Positions 263 through 10,502 of a DNA stretch of 64,000 nt are shown here, in pieces; the stretch's first letter is position 1; the number at the start of each line of letters is the position of its first letter. The position numbers and the translations under genes were made by a program. The stretch covers positions 114,573 through 178,572 of the forward strand of contig NZ_JAOXLP010000007.1 of the NCBI RefSeq assembly GCF_025791835.1. The letters are read 5' to 3'. This DNA comes from Roseomonas xinghualingensis. Its GTDB lineage: Bacteria > Pseudomonadota > Alphaproteobacteria > Acetobacterales > Acetobacteraceae. The notes below the pieces were generated by a model, which searched no databases, was not told the origin of the DNA, and saw only the letters and a list, made by a program, of their open reading frames with translations.

Positions 263-2197
<1,935 letters not shown>

Positions 2198-2266
2198 GCC
2201 TGTCTCCGCCACGGAAAGACCCTCCGGCGGGCGGGTGCGGCCGCCGCCGGGAGTCGAATTGAACCT

Positions 2267-4165
2267 CTATCCTATTGGACCGGCGCCTTCGACGCCGTTC
2301 TCCAGCCCCGTCTCGCCACGACGCAAGTCCGAAAGGGCCTGGCTGAGCCGGATGACGCGCGCCTGGGCCGCGGCATCATTTGCCGCCACCAGATCGCGCC
2401 CCGCTGCCACCAAGTCCTCGACCAGTGCGCCCTCGCCCCGCAGAAAGCCGAAGAAATGCCACCAACCGTCGAGGGTCTCTCCGGGAAGGGCATCGGGGCT
2501 GGCTTCCCGCGGGAGGCCGGTCGCGCGCATGACCCAATTCCGGGCCTCGTCCAGGCCGATCGCCTGCAGGTGGGTCATGAGTATGCCCGAGTCAAGCGAG
2601 GTCCGACCATCTCCTGACGCTTCCGTGAGGGCCAAACCGGCATACCACGCCAGCAGGGCCGCCTGGAGGACCGAGGGATGCCCCTGCGGCAGATCGAGAA
2701 GGGCAAAAGCCTCCTCCACCTCGTTCAGGATCCAGGGATGGGTCATGGTGATGGCCAGCAGGCAACGGGCCTGCTCCATCCGGGCGTTCGATGCCTCGGG
2801 GGGGACACGCGGGGGCAGGCGGGGCGGAGGCCTGAAGCCAGGGCGGTTGCCGCCACGCGGGGCGAAGCCGTTGCCGCCGGACTGGCGCTGGGGGCGTTGC
2901 GGGCGCGTGGTCTCGAAGAAACGGTCCAGCAGGGCACGGCGGTATTCTGCGGCCAGGGCCTTGTCCGGGATGCGCCCGGCGGCGGCGGCGAGGTCGTTCC
3001 GGAAGGCTGCGCGGCCCTCGGGCGAGCCGAGGGGACGGTCGAGGGCCATCAGGTCGTAAAGGGCGATAGAGAAGGGCTTTTTTGCCTTCAGCACCTCCCC
3101 GAAGGCCGCTGCCCCCTTGGAGCGGATCAACTCGTCCGGGTCCTTGCCACTCTCCACGCTGGCGAAATGCAGGGTCCGCTCCGTGCCGAGCAGGGGGAGG
3201 ACCATCTCGGCCGTGCGGACCGCGGCGCGCATACCGGCGGCGTCGGCATCGAGGCAGAGGATGGGCGCCGGCGTGACCTTCCATATCTCCTCCATCTGCT
3301 CGGGCGTCAGGGCGGTGCCCAGCGGGGCAACCGCACCTTCGAACCCCGCCTGATGCAGGGCGATCACGTCCATGTAGCCCTCTGCCACGATCAGGTCGGC
3401 CTTGCCGCGGAACACCGCCTCCCGCGCCATGTCCAGCCCGTAGAGGGTGCGACGCTTGGAGAAGACGTCGGTTTCGGGGCCGTTCAGGTATTTTGGCTGA
3501 CCGTCGCCGAGGATACGGCCACCGAAGGAGACGATGCGGCCGCGCCGGTCCCGGATCGGGAAGATGACGCGGTTGTAGAAGAAGTCGTTGTAGGTCCCTT
3601 CCCGCCCCTCGACCTGCTTCACCAGGCCGGCCTCGGCCAGCTGGCGGGGTTCGATGCCCAGGGGCTTCAGCTCGGCGGCCAGCGCCCCGCGGCCGGAGCC
3701 CGACCAGCCCAGGCCGAAGCGGGCGATGGTCTCGTCGGTGAGGCCGCGGTTCTTCAGGTAATCCAGCGCCTGACGGCCCTCGGGCGAGAAGAGGCGGCGA
3801 TGCATCGCCTCGGCCGCCACCTGGAGCACATCGTGCAGATCGCGGGCACGGGCCTCCCGCGCCACCTGGCGAGGAGATTCCTGGGGCACTTCCAGTCCCG
3901 CCTCGCCGGCCAGGCGCTCCACCGCGTCCCGGAAGGGCAGGCCCTCGGTCTGCATGGTGAAGCCGATGGCATCGCCATGCGCCCCGCAGCCGAAGCAGTG
4001 ATAGTGGTCGTCATAGACGTAGAAGGACGGGGTCTTCTCGTTGTGGAAGGGGCAGCATCCCTTCCACTGACGCCCGTTGCGCGTGAGCTTGACCTTGCGG
4101 CCGATCAGCGGCGGCAGGGGCGTGCGGGCGCGCAGCTCGTCGAGGAAATTGGGCGGTAGGGCCAT
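2267..4165 (-). CDS. dnaG: DNA primase DnaG
   Basis: Synthesises RNA primers for lagging-strand and origin replication with DnaB. The 632-residue product has the N-terminal CHC2 zinc finger (C38, H41, C57, C60 in CPFHNEKTPSF and HCFGCGAHGD), the RNA polymerase core, and a TOPRIM domain from about residue 258 (VAEGYMDVIAL, then LDADAAG). The C-terminal helicase-binding part is variable, as usual. I chose the ATG at 4165 because the family starts with this short lead into the zinc finger; the frame is open further upstream but shows no family-like sequence there. It lies between yqeY and rpoD and has its own promoter-like site. Confidence 0.96.
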   Translation of the reverse strand: MALPPNFLDELRARTPLPPLIGRKVKLTRNGRQWKGCCPFHNEKTPSFYVYDDHYHCFGCGAHGDAIGFTMQTEGLPFRDAVERLAGEAGLEVPQESPRQVAREARARDLHDVLQVAAEAMHRRLFSPEGRQALDYLKNRGLTDETIARFGLGWSGSGRGALAAELKPLGIEPRQLAEAGLVKQVEGREGTYNDFFYNRVIFPIRDRRGRIVSFGGRILGDGQPKYLNGPETDVFSKRRTLYGLDMAREAVFRGKADLIVAEGYMDVIALHQAGFEGAVAPLGTALTPEQMEEIWKVTPAPILCLDADAAGMRAAVRTAEMVLPLLGTERTLHFASVESGKDPDELIRSKGAAAFGEVLKAKKPFSIALYDLMALDRPLGSPEGRAAFRNDLAAAAGRIPDKALAAEYRRALLDRFFETTRPQRPQRQSGGNGFAPRGGNRPGFRPPPRLPPRVPPEASNARMEQARCLLAITMTHPWILNEVEEAFALLDLPQGHPSVLQAALLAWYAGLALTEASGDGRTSLDSGILMTHLQAIGLDEARNWVMRATGLPREASPDALPGETLDGWWHFFGFLRGEGALVEDLVAAGRDLVAANDAAAQARVIRLSQALSDLRRGETGLENGVEGAGPIG

Positions 4166-4188
4166 GGGTCCGATACGCTGGAATAACC

Positions 4189-4216
4189 AAACTAGTCTGC
4201 GGATCGGTTGAGTCAA
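4189..4216 (-). promoter_or_regulatory. Probable sigma-70 promoter of dnaG-rpoD
   Basis: On the minus strand a TTGACT hexamer (4211-4216) is followed after 16 bp by TAGTTT (4189-4194). This puts transcription start about 17 bases before the dnaG ATG. The same TTGACTCA core precedes rpsL and rpsM. No strong Shine-Dalgarno sequence is visible between it and the ATG. Confidence 0.5.
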
Positions 4217-4229
4217 AATGCCGATCGTG

Positions 4230-4258
4230 GTTCCCACCCGGCCCTGCCGGGTGGGAAC
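4230..4258 (-). terminator. Intrinsic terminator hairpin after yqeY
   Basis: A perfect 12-bp inverted repeat (GTTCCCACCCGG / CCGGGTGGGAAC) with a 5-base loop lies just past the yqeY stop. In the minus-strand direction it is followed within 12 bases by a short T-run (ATTTTGAC), which also forms the upstream edge of the dnaG -35 box. Confidence 0.7.
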
Positions 4259-4266
4259 GGGTGGAA

Positions 4267-4725
4267 TCAGCCGCCGAGGGCGGCCTTCACCATCGGCCCG
4301 GCCTTGGCCATGTCCAGTACGGCCGCGTGCTTCGCCTTCAGCGCGGCCATCACCTTGCCCATCTCCTTGATGGAGGTGGCGCCGGTTTCGGCCACGGCCT
4401 CCTTCACGGCGGCCTCCATGGCAGCGTCGTCCATCTGCTGGGGCAGGAAGGACTCGATCACGGCGATCTCGGCCTCCTCCTTGGCGGCCAGTTCCTCGCG
4501 GTTGCCCTGGCGATACATCTCCACGCTCTCGCGGCGGGACTTCACCATGCCGCGCAGAAGGGAGGTGATCTGCTCCTCCGGGATCTGGTCCACGCCGGAA
4601 GGGCGGGAGGCGATATCCGCGTCCTTCAGCTTGGCGGAGATCATGCGAATGGTGGAGACGCGGGCGGTGTCGCCGCCCCGCATCGCGGCCTTGAGTTCCT
4701 CGGTGAAGCGGGCGCGCAGGCTCAT
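4267..4725 (-). CDS. yqeY: GatB/YqeY domain protein
   Basis: A 152-residue stand-alone YqeY protein, related to the tail domain of the amidotransferase subunit GatB that contacts tRNA. Its own role is not settled; a tRNA-linked function is usually assumed. The sequence shows the family's N-terminal helical bundle (LRARFTEELKAAMRGGD, TVRMISAKLKD-like) and the C-terminal small helical domain (SIKEMGKVMAALKAKH). The ATG at 4725 has GGAGA about 8 bases upstream. Its position before dnaG-rpoD is conserved in alphaproteobacteria. It is divergent from carA. Confidence 0.93.
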   Translation of the reverse strand: MSLRARFTEELKAAMRGGDTARVSTIRMISAKLKDADIASRPSGVDQIPEEQITSLLRGMVKSRRESVEMYRQGNREELAAKEEAEIAVIESFLPQQMDDAAMEAAVKEAVAETGATSIKEMGKVMAALKAKHAAVLDMAKAGPMVKAALGG

Positions 4726-4791: not shown

Positions 4792-4808
4792 TGGGAAGTG
4801 ATTTCCCA
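4792..4808. promoter_or_regulatory. Palindromic operator copy 1 upstream of HTH-carA
   Basis: TGGGAAGTGATTTCCCA is a 17-bp dyad with perfect TGGGAA/TTCCCA arms and a 5-bp spacer. Its reverse complement matches copy 2 at 16 of 17 positions. The two centres are 43 bp apart, about four helical turns, so both would lie on the same face of the DNA. It sits in the divergent interval between yqeY and the HTH-carA frame. Confidence 0.7.
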
Positions 4809-4834: not shown

Positions 4835-4851
4835 TGGGAAAACACTTCCCA
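4835..4851. promoter_or_regulatory. Palindromic operator copy 2 upstream of HTH-carA
   Basis: TGGGAAAACACTTCCCA, the same dyad as copy 1 in opposite orientation with one spacer difference. It ends 12 bases before the first ATG of the HTH-carA frame (4864), so a bound protein would probably block the promoter. No Shine-Dalgarno sequence precedes ATG 4864. Together with the short CATATA-like segment right after the operator, this suggests a leaderless start (inference). Confidence 0.7.
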
Positions 4852-4863
4852 CATATAGCCACC

Positions 4864-6255
4864 ATGCGGACGGTCGAGCAGATTCTGACCCTGATGGGTG
4901 GCGCCAGCGCTGCGGCGGCGCATTGCGGCGTGGGCACGGAGGCGATCCGGAAGTGGCGGCAGGCGCGCGCCATCCCGCCGCGCCACTGGCCGGCGGTATT
5001 GGCCGCCACCGGCCTCACCCTTGAAGACCTGCCCCGCGCCGATGCCGATCCGCAAAGCCATTCCACCCCGGAGCCCGACATGACCCCTGCCCCGAATGCC
5101 GCCCCGGATGCCGTTCCCGAGGGGGCGACCGCCTGCCTCGTGCTGGGCAACGGCACCGTGATCTGGGGCCGAGGCTTCGGCGCCGTGGGCAAGAAGGTCG
5201 GCGAGGTGTGCTTCAACACGGGCATGACCGGCTATCAGGAAACCCTGACCGATCCCTCCTATGCCGGGCAGATCATCACCTTCACCTTCCCGCATATCGG
5301 CAATGTCGGCGCGAATGCCGAGGATATCGAGGCCACCACCGCCGCCGCGCGCGGGCTTGTGGTGAAGGCGGACCTGACCGAGCCCTCCAACTACCGCGCC
5401 ACCCGGCACCTGGATGACTGGCTGAAGAGCCATGGCATCCCCGGCATCTGCGGCGTGGACACCCGCGCCCTGACCGCCATGATCCGCGATGCCGGCGCCC
5501 CGAACGGGGTGATCTGCCACGCCCCGGATGGCAAGTTCGACCTGGCCGCGCTGCGCGCCGAGGCCGCCGGCTGGCCGGGGCTGGAAGGCATGGACCTGGC
5601 CAAGGACGTTTCCTGCCGCCAGTCCTACAACTGGGACGAGGCGCTCTGGGCCTGGGGCCAGGGTTATTCGAAGCAGACGGCGCCGAAGCACAAGGTCGTC
5701 GCCGTGGATTACGGCGCCAAGCGCAACATCCTGCGCTGCCTGGCCGATGCGGGCTGCGAGGTGACCGTGGTTCCCGCCACCGCCACCGCCGAGGAGATCC
5801 TGCGGCACGGTCCGGATGGCGTCTTCCTGTCGAACGGCCCTGGTGACCCGGCGGCGACCGGCGAATACGCCGTACCGGCCATCCGGGGCGTGCTGGAGGC
5901 TGGCAAGCCGGTCTTCGGCATCTGCCTCGGCCACCAGCTCCTGGCTCTTGCCCTGGGCGCGAAGACCTACAAGCTGGATCGCGGCCATCGCGGCGCGAAC
6001 CAGCCGGTGAAGGACCTCGCCACGGGTAAGGTGGAGATCACTTCGCAGAACCACGGCTTCGCGGTGGACGATAAGTCCCTGCCGGAGGGCGTGAAGGTGA
6101 CCCATGTGAGCCTCTTCGACGGCTCCAACGAGGGCATCGCCTGCGAGGCGAAGAAGGCCTTCTCCGTGCAATACCATCCGGAGGCCTCGCCCGGCCCGAG
6201 CGACAGCCACCACCTGTTCCATCGCTTCACGGACATGATGTCCAAGGCCGCCTAA
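4864..6255 (+). CDS. carA: Carbamoyl-phosphate synthase small subunit, with an in-frame N-terminal HTH domain
   Basis: CarA hydrolyses glutamine and channels ammonia to CarB for carbamoyl phosphate, the precursor of pyrimidines and arginine. The amidotransferase shows its nucleophile elbow (FGICLGHQLL) and catalytic His/Glu (YHPEASPGP). The normal CarA part begins at about codon 73 with MTPAPNAAPDAVPEG and would be 391 residues. Upstream, in the same frame and with no stop, are 72 codons encoding a small helix-turn-helix domain (AAHCGVGTEAIRKWRQ, then AIPPRHWPAVLAATG) of YdaS/Cro type. Either a 463-residue fusion is made, or translation restarts at ATG 5080, which has GGAG about 6 bases upstream. 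NCBI has, as I recall, a 'carph-isopro' HTH family found next to carbamoyl-phosphate synthase genes; this domain resembles it. Confidence 0.9.
   Translation: MRTVEQILTLMGGASAAAAHCGVGTEAIRKWRQARAIPPRHWPAVLAATGLTLEDLPRADADPQSHSTPEPDMTPAPNAAPDAVPEGATACLVLGNGTVIWGRGFGAVGKKVGEVCFNTGMTGYQETLTDPSYAGQIITFTFPHIGNVGANAEDIEATTAAARGLVVKADLTEPSNYRATRHLDDWLKSHGIPGICGVDTRALTAMIRDAGAPNGVICHAPDGKFDLAALRAEAAGWPGLEGMDLAKDVSCRQSYNWDEALWAWGQGYSKQTAPKHKVVAVDYGAKRNILRCLADAGCEVTVVPATATAEEILRHGPDGVFLSNGPGDPAATGEYAVPAIRGVLEAGKPVFGICLGHQLLALALGAKTYKLDRGHRGANQPVKDLATGKVEITSQNHGFAVDDKSLPEGVKVTHVSLFDGSNEGIACEAKKAFSVQYHPEASPGPSDSHHLFHRFTDMMSKAA
5070..5082 (+). promoter_or_regulatory. Internal ribosome binding site and alternative start of conventional CarA
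   Basis: CGGAG (5070-5073 region) lies about 6 bases before ATG 5080, which is where CarA proteins of normal length begin. The first ATG of the frame, at 4864, has no such signal. The spacing argues that conventional CarA can be made from this internal start even if the HTH-CarA fusion is also translated. Confidence 0.5.
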
Positions 6256-6259
6256 GCCT

Positions 6260-6892
6260 TTGCCTTCCGCCGCCTCCCTGCTCGCCTTCGCGGCGCTGTC
6301 GGTCGGTCTCGCGCTCACGCCGGGGCCGAACCTCTTCTATCTCGTCTCGCGCAGCCTGACGCAGGGCACGCGGGCCGGGATGCTGTCGCTCGTTGGGTGC
6401 CAGACAGGAAGCCTGGTCATCATGCTGGGCGCGGCGGCGGGGATCACGGCGGCGCTGCTGGCGGTGCCCTATGCCTATGACGCGATGCGGCTCGGCGGCG
6501 CGGCCTATCTCGGCTGGCTCGCCTGGCAGAGCGTGCGGCCGGGCGGTGTTGCGCTGTTCTCTCCGCGCCCCATCCCCCGGGAGAGCGGGGCTCGCCTCTT
6601 CTCCCTCGGCTTCGCCACGGCGGCGCTGAACCCGAAGGTGGCGCTGTTCTATGTCGCTGTCCTGCCGGCCTTCATGGATCCGGAACGCGGCAGCCTCCTC
6701 ATGCAGGGGCTGGTGCTGGGCACGGTCCAGATCGGCATCTGCACGCTGTTCGACGCGCTGATGGTGCTGGGCGCTGGCGGTGTCTCGCGCTTCCTCTCCA
6801 CGCGGCCGGCCTGGTTGGCCGTTCAGCGCTGGGTGCTGGGCGGCGCGCTGGCCCTGCTGGCGGTGAAGCTGGCGACGGATTCCCGCGCGTGA
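6260..6892 (+). CDS. LysE/RhtB family amino-acid exporter
   Basis: A 210-residue integral membrane protein of the LysE superfamily, which exports amino acids or derivatives. The family signature LTPGPN is near the N-terminus (residues 18-23) after the first hydrophobic helix, and about six membrane segments follow. The start is a TTG at 6260, four bases after the carA stop; the first ATG would delete helix 1 and the signature, so TTG is preferred. It is co-directional with carA and carB and may be in the same transcript. Its substrate is unknown; arginine or another CarAB-linked amino acid is only a guess. Confidence 0.85.
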   Translation: MPSAASLLAFAALSVGLALTPGPNLFYLVSRSLTQGTRAGMLSLVGCQTGSLVIMLGAAAGITAALLAVPYAYDAMRLGGAAYLGWLAWQSVRPGGVALFSPRPIPRESGARLFSLGFATAALNPKVALFYVAVLPAFMDPERGSLLMQGLVLGTVQIGICTLFDALMVLGAGGVSRFLSTRPAWLAVQRWVLGGALALLAVKLATDSRA

Positions 6893-7137
6893 TCCGCCTG
6901 TTGTTCCTGGCACTGCCGCTGTCCCTGCTCGGCTGGTGGGCCCTGCGCCGCGTGGGTAAGCCGCGCGACAAGGCCTGGATGGGCGGGGTGGCGATCTCCT
7001 TCGTCGCGCTGGGCGGCGTCGTCTTCTTCTCGGGCGAGGACCACGAAACGGGGCGCGCCCTGGCCGCCGCGCTCTGGGCCGGGGTGCATGCCCTGCTCTT
7101 CATCCTGCTCTGGCCCTTTCTGGGGCGGTCGCGATGA
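6889..7137 (+). CDS. Small hypothetical membrane protein
   Basis: An 82-residue protein with three hydrophobic stretches (about residues 2-18, 30-47 and 58-78) separated by short charged loops. Its GTG start overlaps the TGA stop of the LysE gene (GTGA), so it is likely translationally coupled to the exporter. I do not recognise a family. Confidence 0.65.
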   Translation: MIRLLFLALPLSLLGWWALRRVGKPRDKAWMGGVAISFVALGGVVFFSGEDHETGRALAAALWAGVHALLFILLWPFLGRSR

Positions 7138-7155
7138 AGGGCCATCGAACCAACC

Positions 7156-7209
7156 GCGCGGCCGCACCAACGGCCGCGCCGAACCTCTCCGCCGCGCGAC
7201 ACGGCGCGG
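7156..7209 (+). promoter_or_regulatory. Two GC-rich hairpins in the carB leader
   Basis: The 116-bp gap before carB contains a perfect 9-bp stem with a 6-base loop (GCGCGGCCG / CGGCCGCGC, 7156-7179) and then a 6-bp stem (CCGCGC / GCGCGG, 7192-7209). Neither has a T-run, so simple termination is not indicated. They could slow polymerase or stabilise a processed carB message. carB itself has a clear GGAGG about 10 bases before its ATG. Confidence 0.4.
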
Positions 7210-7253
7210 TCACCACCACTGACTTCTTCTTGCTGCCCCGGAGGGCCTGAGCC

Positions 7254-10502
<3,249 letters not shown>

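Follow-up and report, generated by a model that had tools for sequence, protein, structure and literature searches.

A DNA-binding domain and a metabolic enzyme share one open reading frame in the 64,000-nucleotide stretch of the Roseomonas xinghualingensis genome analysed here (the window). On the plus strand, this frame (4864..6255, 463 aa) runs from a Cro-type helix-turn-helix (HTH) domain through CarA, the small subunit of carbamoyl-phosphate synthase, and an earlier note on this DNA was right to read it as free of any stop between the two. It holds the one CarA match in the genome. The gene diverges from yqeY-dnaG-rpoD (263-4725, minus strand), and is followed on its own strand, across 6260-10502, by a LysE-like gene, a small frame, and then carB, all these neighbors being named by eye. 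The gap between yqeY and carA is just 138 nt long and contains two candidate operators. The frame itself remains open farther upstream as far as GTG 4798, and the stretch between this codon and the ATG includes the proximal operator.

A Cro-type domain in frame with CarA

The HTH occupies residues 1-56 (4864..5031, plus strand). The HMM search proposed in the earlier note found a family for it, and indeed the carph-isopro family that the note had tentatively named: residues 4-56 match NCBIfam model NF046037 (carphisopro) at 66 bits for the HTH alone and 61.5 for the full protein, above the curated cut-off of 38 bits, making the domain a member by score. The model names the domain only and carries no mention of an operator, of autoregulation, or of a second start; at a guess, the name alludes to CarA. 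The Cro/YdaS-type assignment is also borne out by a profile built from 42 such HTHs, which matches the solved Cro chains PDB 5w8y (XPH1), 3bd1, 2hin, and 1rzs at E 1e-4 to 0.1, the last two presumably being N15 Cro and P22 Cro. Scores against Pfam YdaS_toxin (24.5, gathering cut-off 30) and P22_Cro (19.0, gathering cut-off 30.2) fall below the cut-offs. Thus related by profile, the phage Cro proteins are free chains of 61-79 residues, whereas here the domain is the head of an enzyme. The AlphaFold2 model of HTH-CarA (mean pLDDT 86.6) shows a normal CarA, with four helices in the head at residues 4-10, 14-21, 25-34, and 39-49. The third of these is the predicted recognition helix, the DNA-reading helix being taken from the Cro fold.

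A linker (residues 57-89, 5032..5130, plus strand) joins the head to the enzyme. It is mostly predicted to be disordered, with pLDDT below 50 at residues 60-72 and 74-78, and is variable in both length and letters, ranging from 7 to 51 residues across loci. The CarA domain then fills residues 90-462 (5131..6249, plus strand). Residues 90-460 match the CarA model TIGR01368 at 460.7 bits (cut-off 307.35), and the best Foldseek match is the E. coli CarA chain 1cs0_B (52% identity, TM 0.90 by target). The glutaminase catalytic Cys/His pair, C354 and H438, is invariant in 49 sequences; by motif and by eye it was equated with E. coli Cys269 and His353 (PMC6245113). As an open frame, DNA-binding domain and enzyme are one chain, as in PutA.

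The fusion is a family trait. At E 1e-4, the carphisopro domain occurs in 237 of 249 Acetobacteraceae genomes, the window's included. Of the 12 genomes without it, six have no CarA match, four have a CarA cut at a contig end, and two (G029 and G210) have a full CarA without HTH; G116 is a third HTH-less case, its one match to the domain being a small gene of its own. Fusion was scored at 241 family loci, 217 of them distinct (the window, L011-L120, four further loci, and L195-L320). These were picked by HTH similarity, among the matches listed plus 80 of 177 relatives, so the sample favors carA genes with a good HTH. Left out among the listed domain matches were G142, G174, G035:C247, and G038:C18: in G035 the HTH and CarA lie at the ends of different contigs and are not scorable for fusion, and G038:C18 is a second HTH in its genome. 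The earlier note had suggested comparing the carA 5′ region across Acetobacteraceae, and in this sample the two domains share a frame in 240 of 241 loci, the lone exception (L151) being shifted within the linker. Two loci of a single genome (L154 and L195) have a stop inside CarA. Set against five near relatives, HTH codons 1-57 show 13-20 changes that are synonymous and 0-4 that alter the amino acid; the HTH is under purifying selection at the protein level. A frame left open by chance is rejected on these two counts.

Across the class Alphaproteobacteria the domain is found in 72 of 385 genomes, five of the 72 being Acetobacteraceae, and outside the family no HTH lies within reach of carA in any of 29 CarA loci. 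Where the sources name the long proteins, the name is carbamoyl-phosphate synthase small subunit (120/193 among the matches listed), which leaves the presumed regulator invisible in annotation.

Two predicted translation starts

As the earlier note had pointed out, a second ATG lies at 5080, preceded by a Shine-Dalgarno-like GGAG (5070..5073, plus strand) with a 6-nt gap. A plain CarA of 391 aa could start there (5080..6255, plus strand). The spacing agrees with the Gluconobacter ribosome-site consensus, aGGAg at 3-14 nt, as given in an RNA-seq paper (PMC5756330) whose main text makes no mention of carA or carbamoyl.

The internal start is conserved. Among the 97 distinct linkers of the first 110 loci plus the window, 84 carry an in-frame ATG (22 would be expected at the whole-frame ATG rate), and 72 combine it with a ribosome 4-mer, against a mean of 7.7 and a maximum of 17 in 1000 codon shuffles; the linker's other two frames give 1 and 0. 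A larger set of 187 distinct linkers, assembled without L151, L153, and 13 loci whose CarA start was missed by the pattern, yields an ATG in 147 and an ATG with ribosome site in 116 (500 shuffles: 13.2, largest 24). At sequence level this supports the suggestion that fusion and plain CarA could both be made. At the upstream end, just 7 of 111 loci have a ribosome 4-mer ahead of the HTH ATG; with this start lying directly behind the putative promoter and lacking a ribosome site, the fusion message is probably leaderless.

Could the fusion nevertheless be the only product, the conserved ATG and GGAG going unused? There is a small chance of this, and it draws on the 40 of 187 distinct linkers that have no ATG, some of them carrying GTG or TTG, so that two products are in any case not universal. 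It sits poorly with the excess of ATG plus ribosome 4-mer over the codon shuffles and its near absence from the other two frames. Dual output from carA in the window and in most relatives is thus the reading retained here. In eight genomes whose linker lacks an ATG, the fusion is the sole CarA over the cut-off (G232, the ninth genome searched, does carry the ATG), so that the fusion itself has to function as CarA in those eight.

Candidate operators upstream of carA

Just upstream of the HTH start are two features absent from the earlier note: a distal site, TGGGAAGTGATTTCCCA (4792..4808), and a proximal one, TGGGAAAACACTTCCCA (4835..4851). Both are exact palindromes, perfect 17-mers of the form TGGGAA-N5-TTCCCA placed 43 nt apart, and the proximal one ends 12 nt before the ATG. 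They are candidate operators recognized by sequence, and with them the HTH on CarA becomes a specific autoregulatory hypothesis that experiments can address. Within 200 nt upstream of carA, the best site has no mismatch in 129 of the 217 distinct loci, at most one in 197, and at most two in 206; at this last threshold three controls score 0/217: the pattern in reverse, coding DNA of CarA, and a single mononucleotide shuffle of each locus. Counted in the same way (up to two mismatches, 200 nt), 162 loci have two sites, 44 have one, and 11 have none, and in 104 of the 162 the pair is 38-39 nt apart. Of the 206 loci with a site, 155 have the nearest one starting 27-35 nt ahead of the ATG (149 of them at 29-31 nt). 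In the other 51, Komagataeibacter for example, it starts beyond 35 nt, and the layout of the promoter thus varies.

Between the proximal operator and the ATG lies a putative -10 element, CATATAGC (4852..4859, plus strand). In the 83 of 108 distinct upstream regions with a site at -33 to -27, bases 2-4 after the operator are A in 68, T in 61, and A in 51, often as CATA or GATA. A sigma-70 consensus scan recognized no site.

The pattern is largely private to this gene. In 50 family genomes there are 48 exact operators, spread over 35 genomes, and 43 of them stand at HTH-carA (assigned from coordinates, by eye), making carA essentially the only target; a wide regulon is rejected on this count. 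The five stray sites (G000:C87, G015:C45, G030:C2, G034:C72, and G044:C34) equal in number the five exact hits of the reversed pattern. The stray copy in the window's own genome (L001:1501-1517, G000:C87:125189), its only other exact one, lies near the beginning of a gene read by eye as an Rrf2-like regulator and is accordingly taken as probable chance. Three further operator-like sites occur in that genome at one mismatch.

Operator and HTH come and go together. The HTH-less carA genes of G210, G029, and G116 have no site at one mismatch or fewer (their best matches have 3-5), and no such site occurs at any of the 29 non-family carA loci, one of these having just 179 nt upstream. As for the divergent neighbor, yqeY lies within 1.5 kb in 26 of the 32 carA loci without HTH. 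The operator (up to two mismatches) is present in 81 of 85 loci with an adjacent yqeY and in 24 of 26 without. Ownership of the operators by yqeY is rejected on this last figure, the sites following carA.

These observations bear on whether HTH-CarA might activate instead of repress, or might act on the yqeY-dnaG-rpoD side. The operators do lie in the gap between the divergent genes, and the distal ones are farther upstream, where activators can bind. Such an arrangement is rather improbable: the proximal operator abuts the putative -10 element, which favors repression, and the sites remain at loci that have no yqeY next to carA. Repression of carA is accordingly kept as the working direction of control.

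There is some sign that operator and HTH also change together. Over the 217 loci, 11 have the operator type CGGAA-N5-TTCCG, 196 have GGGAA (in one of these, L153, the residue is unread), and 10 fit both equally. Residue 24 is S or T and residue 35 is G in ten of the 11 loci of CGGAA type, a combination seen (as T24 and G35) in 3 of the 195 GGGAA loci read and in none of the 10 tied ones; these two residues flank the predicted helix 25-34. When HTH columns are ranked by their information on operator class, 33 and 35 come first, and 2 and 5 stand above 24. On the best CarA tree (118 of 193 sequences after thinning, including all but one of the 11 CGGAA loci), the operator change needs five events, at least two of them forced by starred branches, and a sign test on independent pairs is not significant. 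The partial co-variation is suggestive, and in view of the three GGGAA loci with T24 and G35 and the rank of residues 2 and 5, common descent may account for some of it.

It is on the same evidence that a different reader of the operators, leaving the HTH on CarA with some other job, appears quite unlikely. The genome does encode other Cro-type proteins (L006 and L007), but neither of their loci has an exact operator, and a separate regulator would fit poorly with sites that are present or absent along with the HTH, that are found almost nowhere else in the 50 genomes, and that co-vary with it in part. HTH-CarA thus remains the favored ligand.

A proposed self-controlled enzyme and its relatives

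The reading judged likely is that this one gene supplies both an autogenous enzyme-repressor of the PutA kind and plain CarA, by way of the HTH, the two operators, and the second start. The Cro-type head would bind the two operators at its own promoter, and HTH-CarA, alone or within the synthase complex, would occupy them and block carA when it is plentiful or when the complex is in a given state. The internal start, with its good ribosome site and disordered linker, would release plain CarA as a supply of enzyme without repressor. The signal might be UMP or ornithine acting through CarB, or the balance of CarA to CarB. In the E. coli synthase, UMP keeps single alpha-beta units and ornithine favors tetramers (PMC6245113); such shifts in oligomeric state could bring the HTHs together or apart. 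That plain CarA alone is translated from 5080, the upstream frame being a relic or an annotation artefact, is hardly credible: the scarcity of ribosome sites at the upstream start and their presence at the internal one would suit it, but the frame is kept in 240 of 241 loci, its HTH residues are under purifying selection, and some lineages have a single carA and no internal ATG.

Enzyme-repressor fusions are already known, and the carph-isopro domain is already named by NCBI. The closest parallel to the proposed self-controlled HTH-CarA is trifunctional PutA, an autogenous repressor in which a ribbon-helix-helix domain is fused to proline-catabolic enzymes, as described in the abstract of PMC5293562. 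Both place an N-terminal DNA-binding domain on a metabolic enzyme, and PutA represses its own regulon, as is proposed for HTH-CarA, for which specific candidate sites stand at its own promoter. They differ in their parts, a ribbon-helix-helix and a flavoenzyme in PutA as against a Cro-type HTH and CarA here, and the conserved second start of HTH-CarA has no counterpart mentioned in that abstract. E. coli carAB is controlled by ArgR, PurR, RutR, IHF, PepA, and PyrH (PMC6245113). Control there is exerted in part by enzymes with a second regulatory role, as is proposed here, although those regulators are separate proteins, whereas the regulator here would be CarA itself. A literature search, with most subscription journals outside its coverage, found nothing on HTH-CarA, its operator, or its two starts, and did not find the carph-isopro domain, a pyruvate kinase with an HTH domain in Acetobacteraceae, or any report of Mic60/mitofilin with a helix-turn-helix in alphaproteobacteria.

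Similar heads sit on other proteins. The same genome encodes a 544-aa fusion of a Cro/YdaS-type HTH to pyruvate kinase (L010:1483-3114, G000:C87:173161; L010/L327). Relatives of its HTH occur in 21 of 100 family genomes, and in 12 of the 100 (the window's included) they belong to long frames of 545-570 aa, in which pyruvate kinase was confirmed by Pfam in three and recognized by the translated enzyme start in the other nine. Near -23 from the ATG of these genes is a CTTA-N7-TAAG palindrome, exact in 8 of 12 and within one mismatch in 11 (one of them at -56), as counted in the same 12 sequences on which it was defined; the reversed pattern scores 0/12 and shuffles 3%. Ten of the 12 lack a ribosome 4-mer at the upstream start, and six have one at an internal start. 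YdaS-type heads were also seen on all four PF02613 (nitrate reductase delta) proteins tested (L339, L340, L342, and L345), taken here to be TorD-like. In alphaproteobacteria of other families, the carph-isopro head is found at the N-terminus of Mitofilin/Mic60-like, and hence membrane-shaping, proteins, six of seven being over the cut-off (L121, L122, L124, L133, L143, and L147) and L140 slightly below; at L129 such a gene lies beside frames resembling hemC and hemD (by eye).

A broader picture, offered tentatively and with somewhat less than even confidence, is that Alphaproteobacteria repeatedly mount phage Cro-type heads on proteins of metabolism or structure, namely CarA, pyruvate kinase, a TorD-like chaperone, and Mic60. 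CarA and pyruvate kinase would each pair the head with a private palindrome at a start devoid of ribosome site, and the internal start of CarA would free the plain enzyme; carA would then be sensor, repressor, and enzyme at once, with the oligomeric state of the synthase reporting pyrimidine and arginine status to the promoter.

With the operator now in hand, self-control of carA is directly testable. The similar pyruvate kinase fusion suggests that phage repressor domains have become metabolic regulators by this route more than once. If true, autogenous control by HTH-CarA would mean that throughout the family an enzyme governs the gene that encodes it, at the point where arginine and pyrimidine synthesis part, by a regulator hidden in annotation under an enzyme's name.
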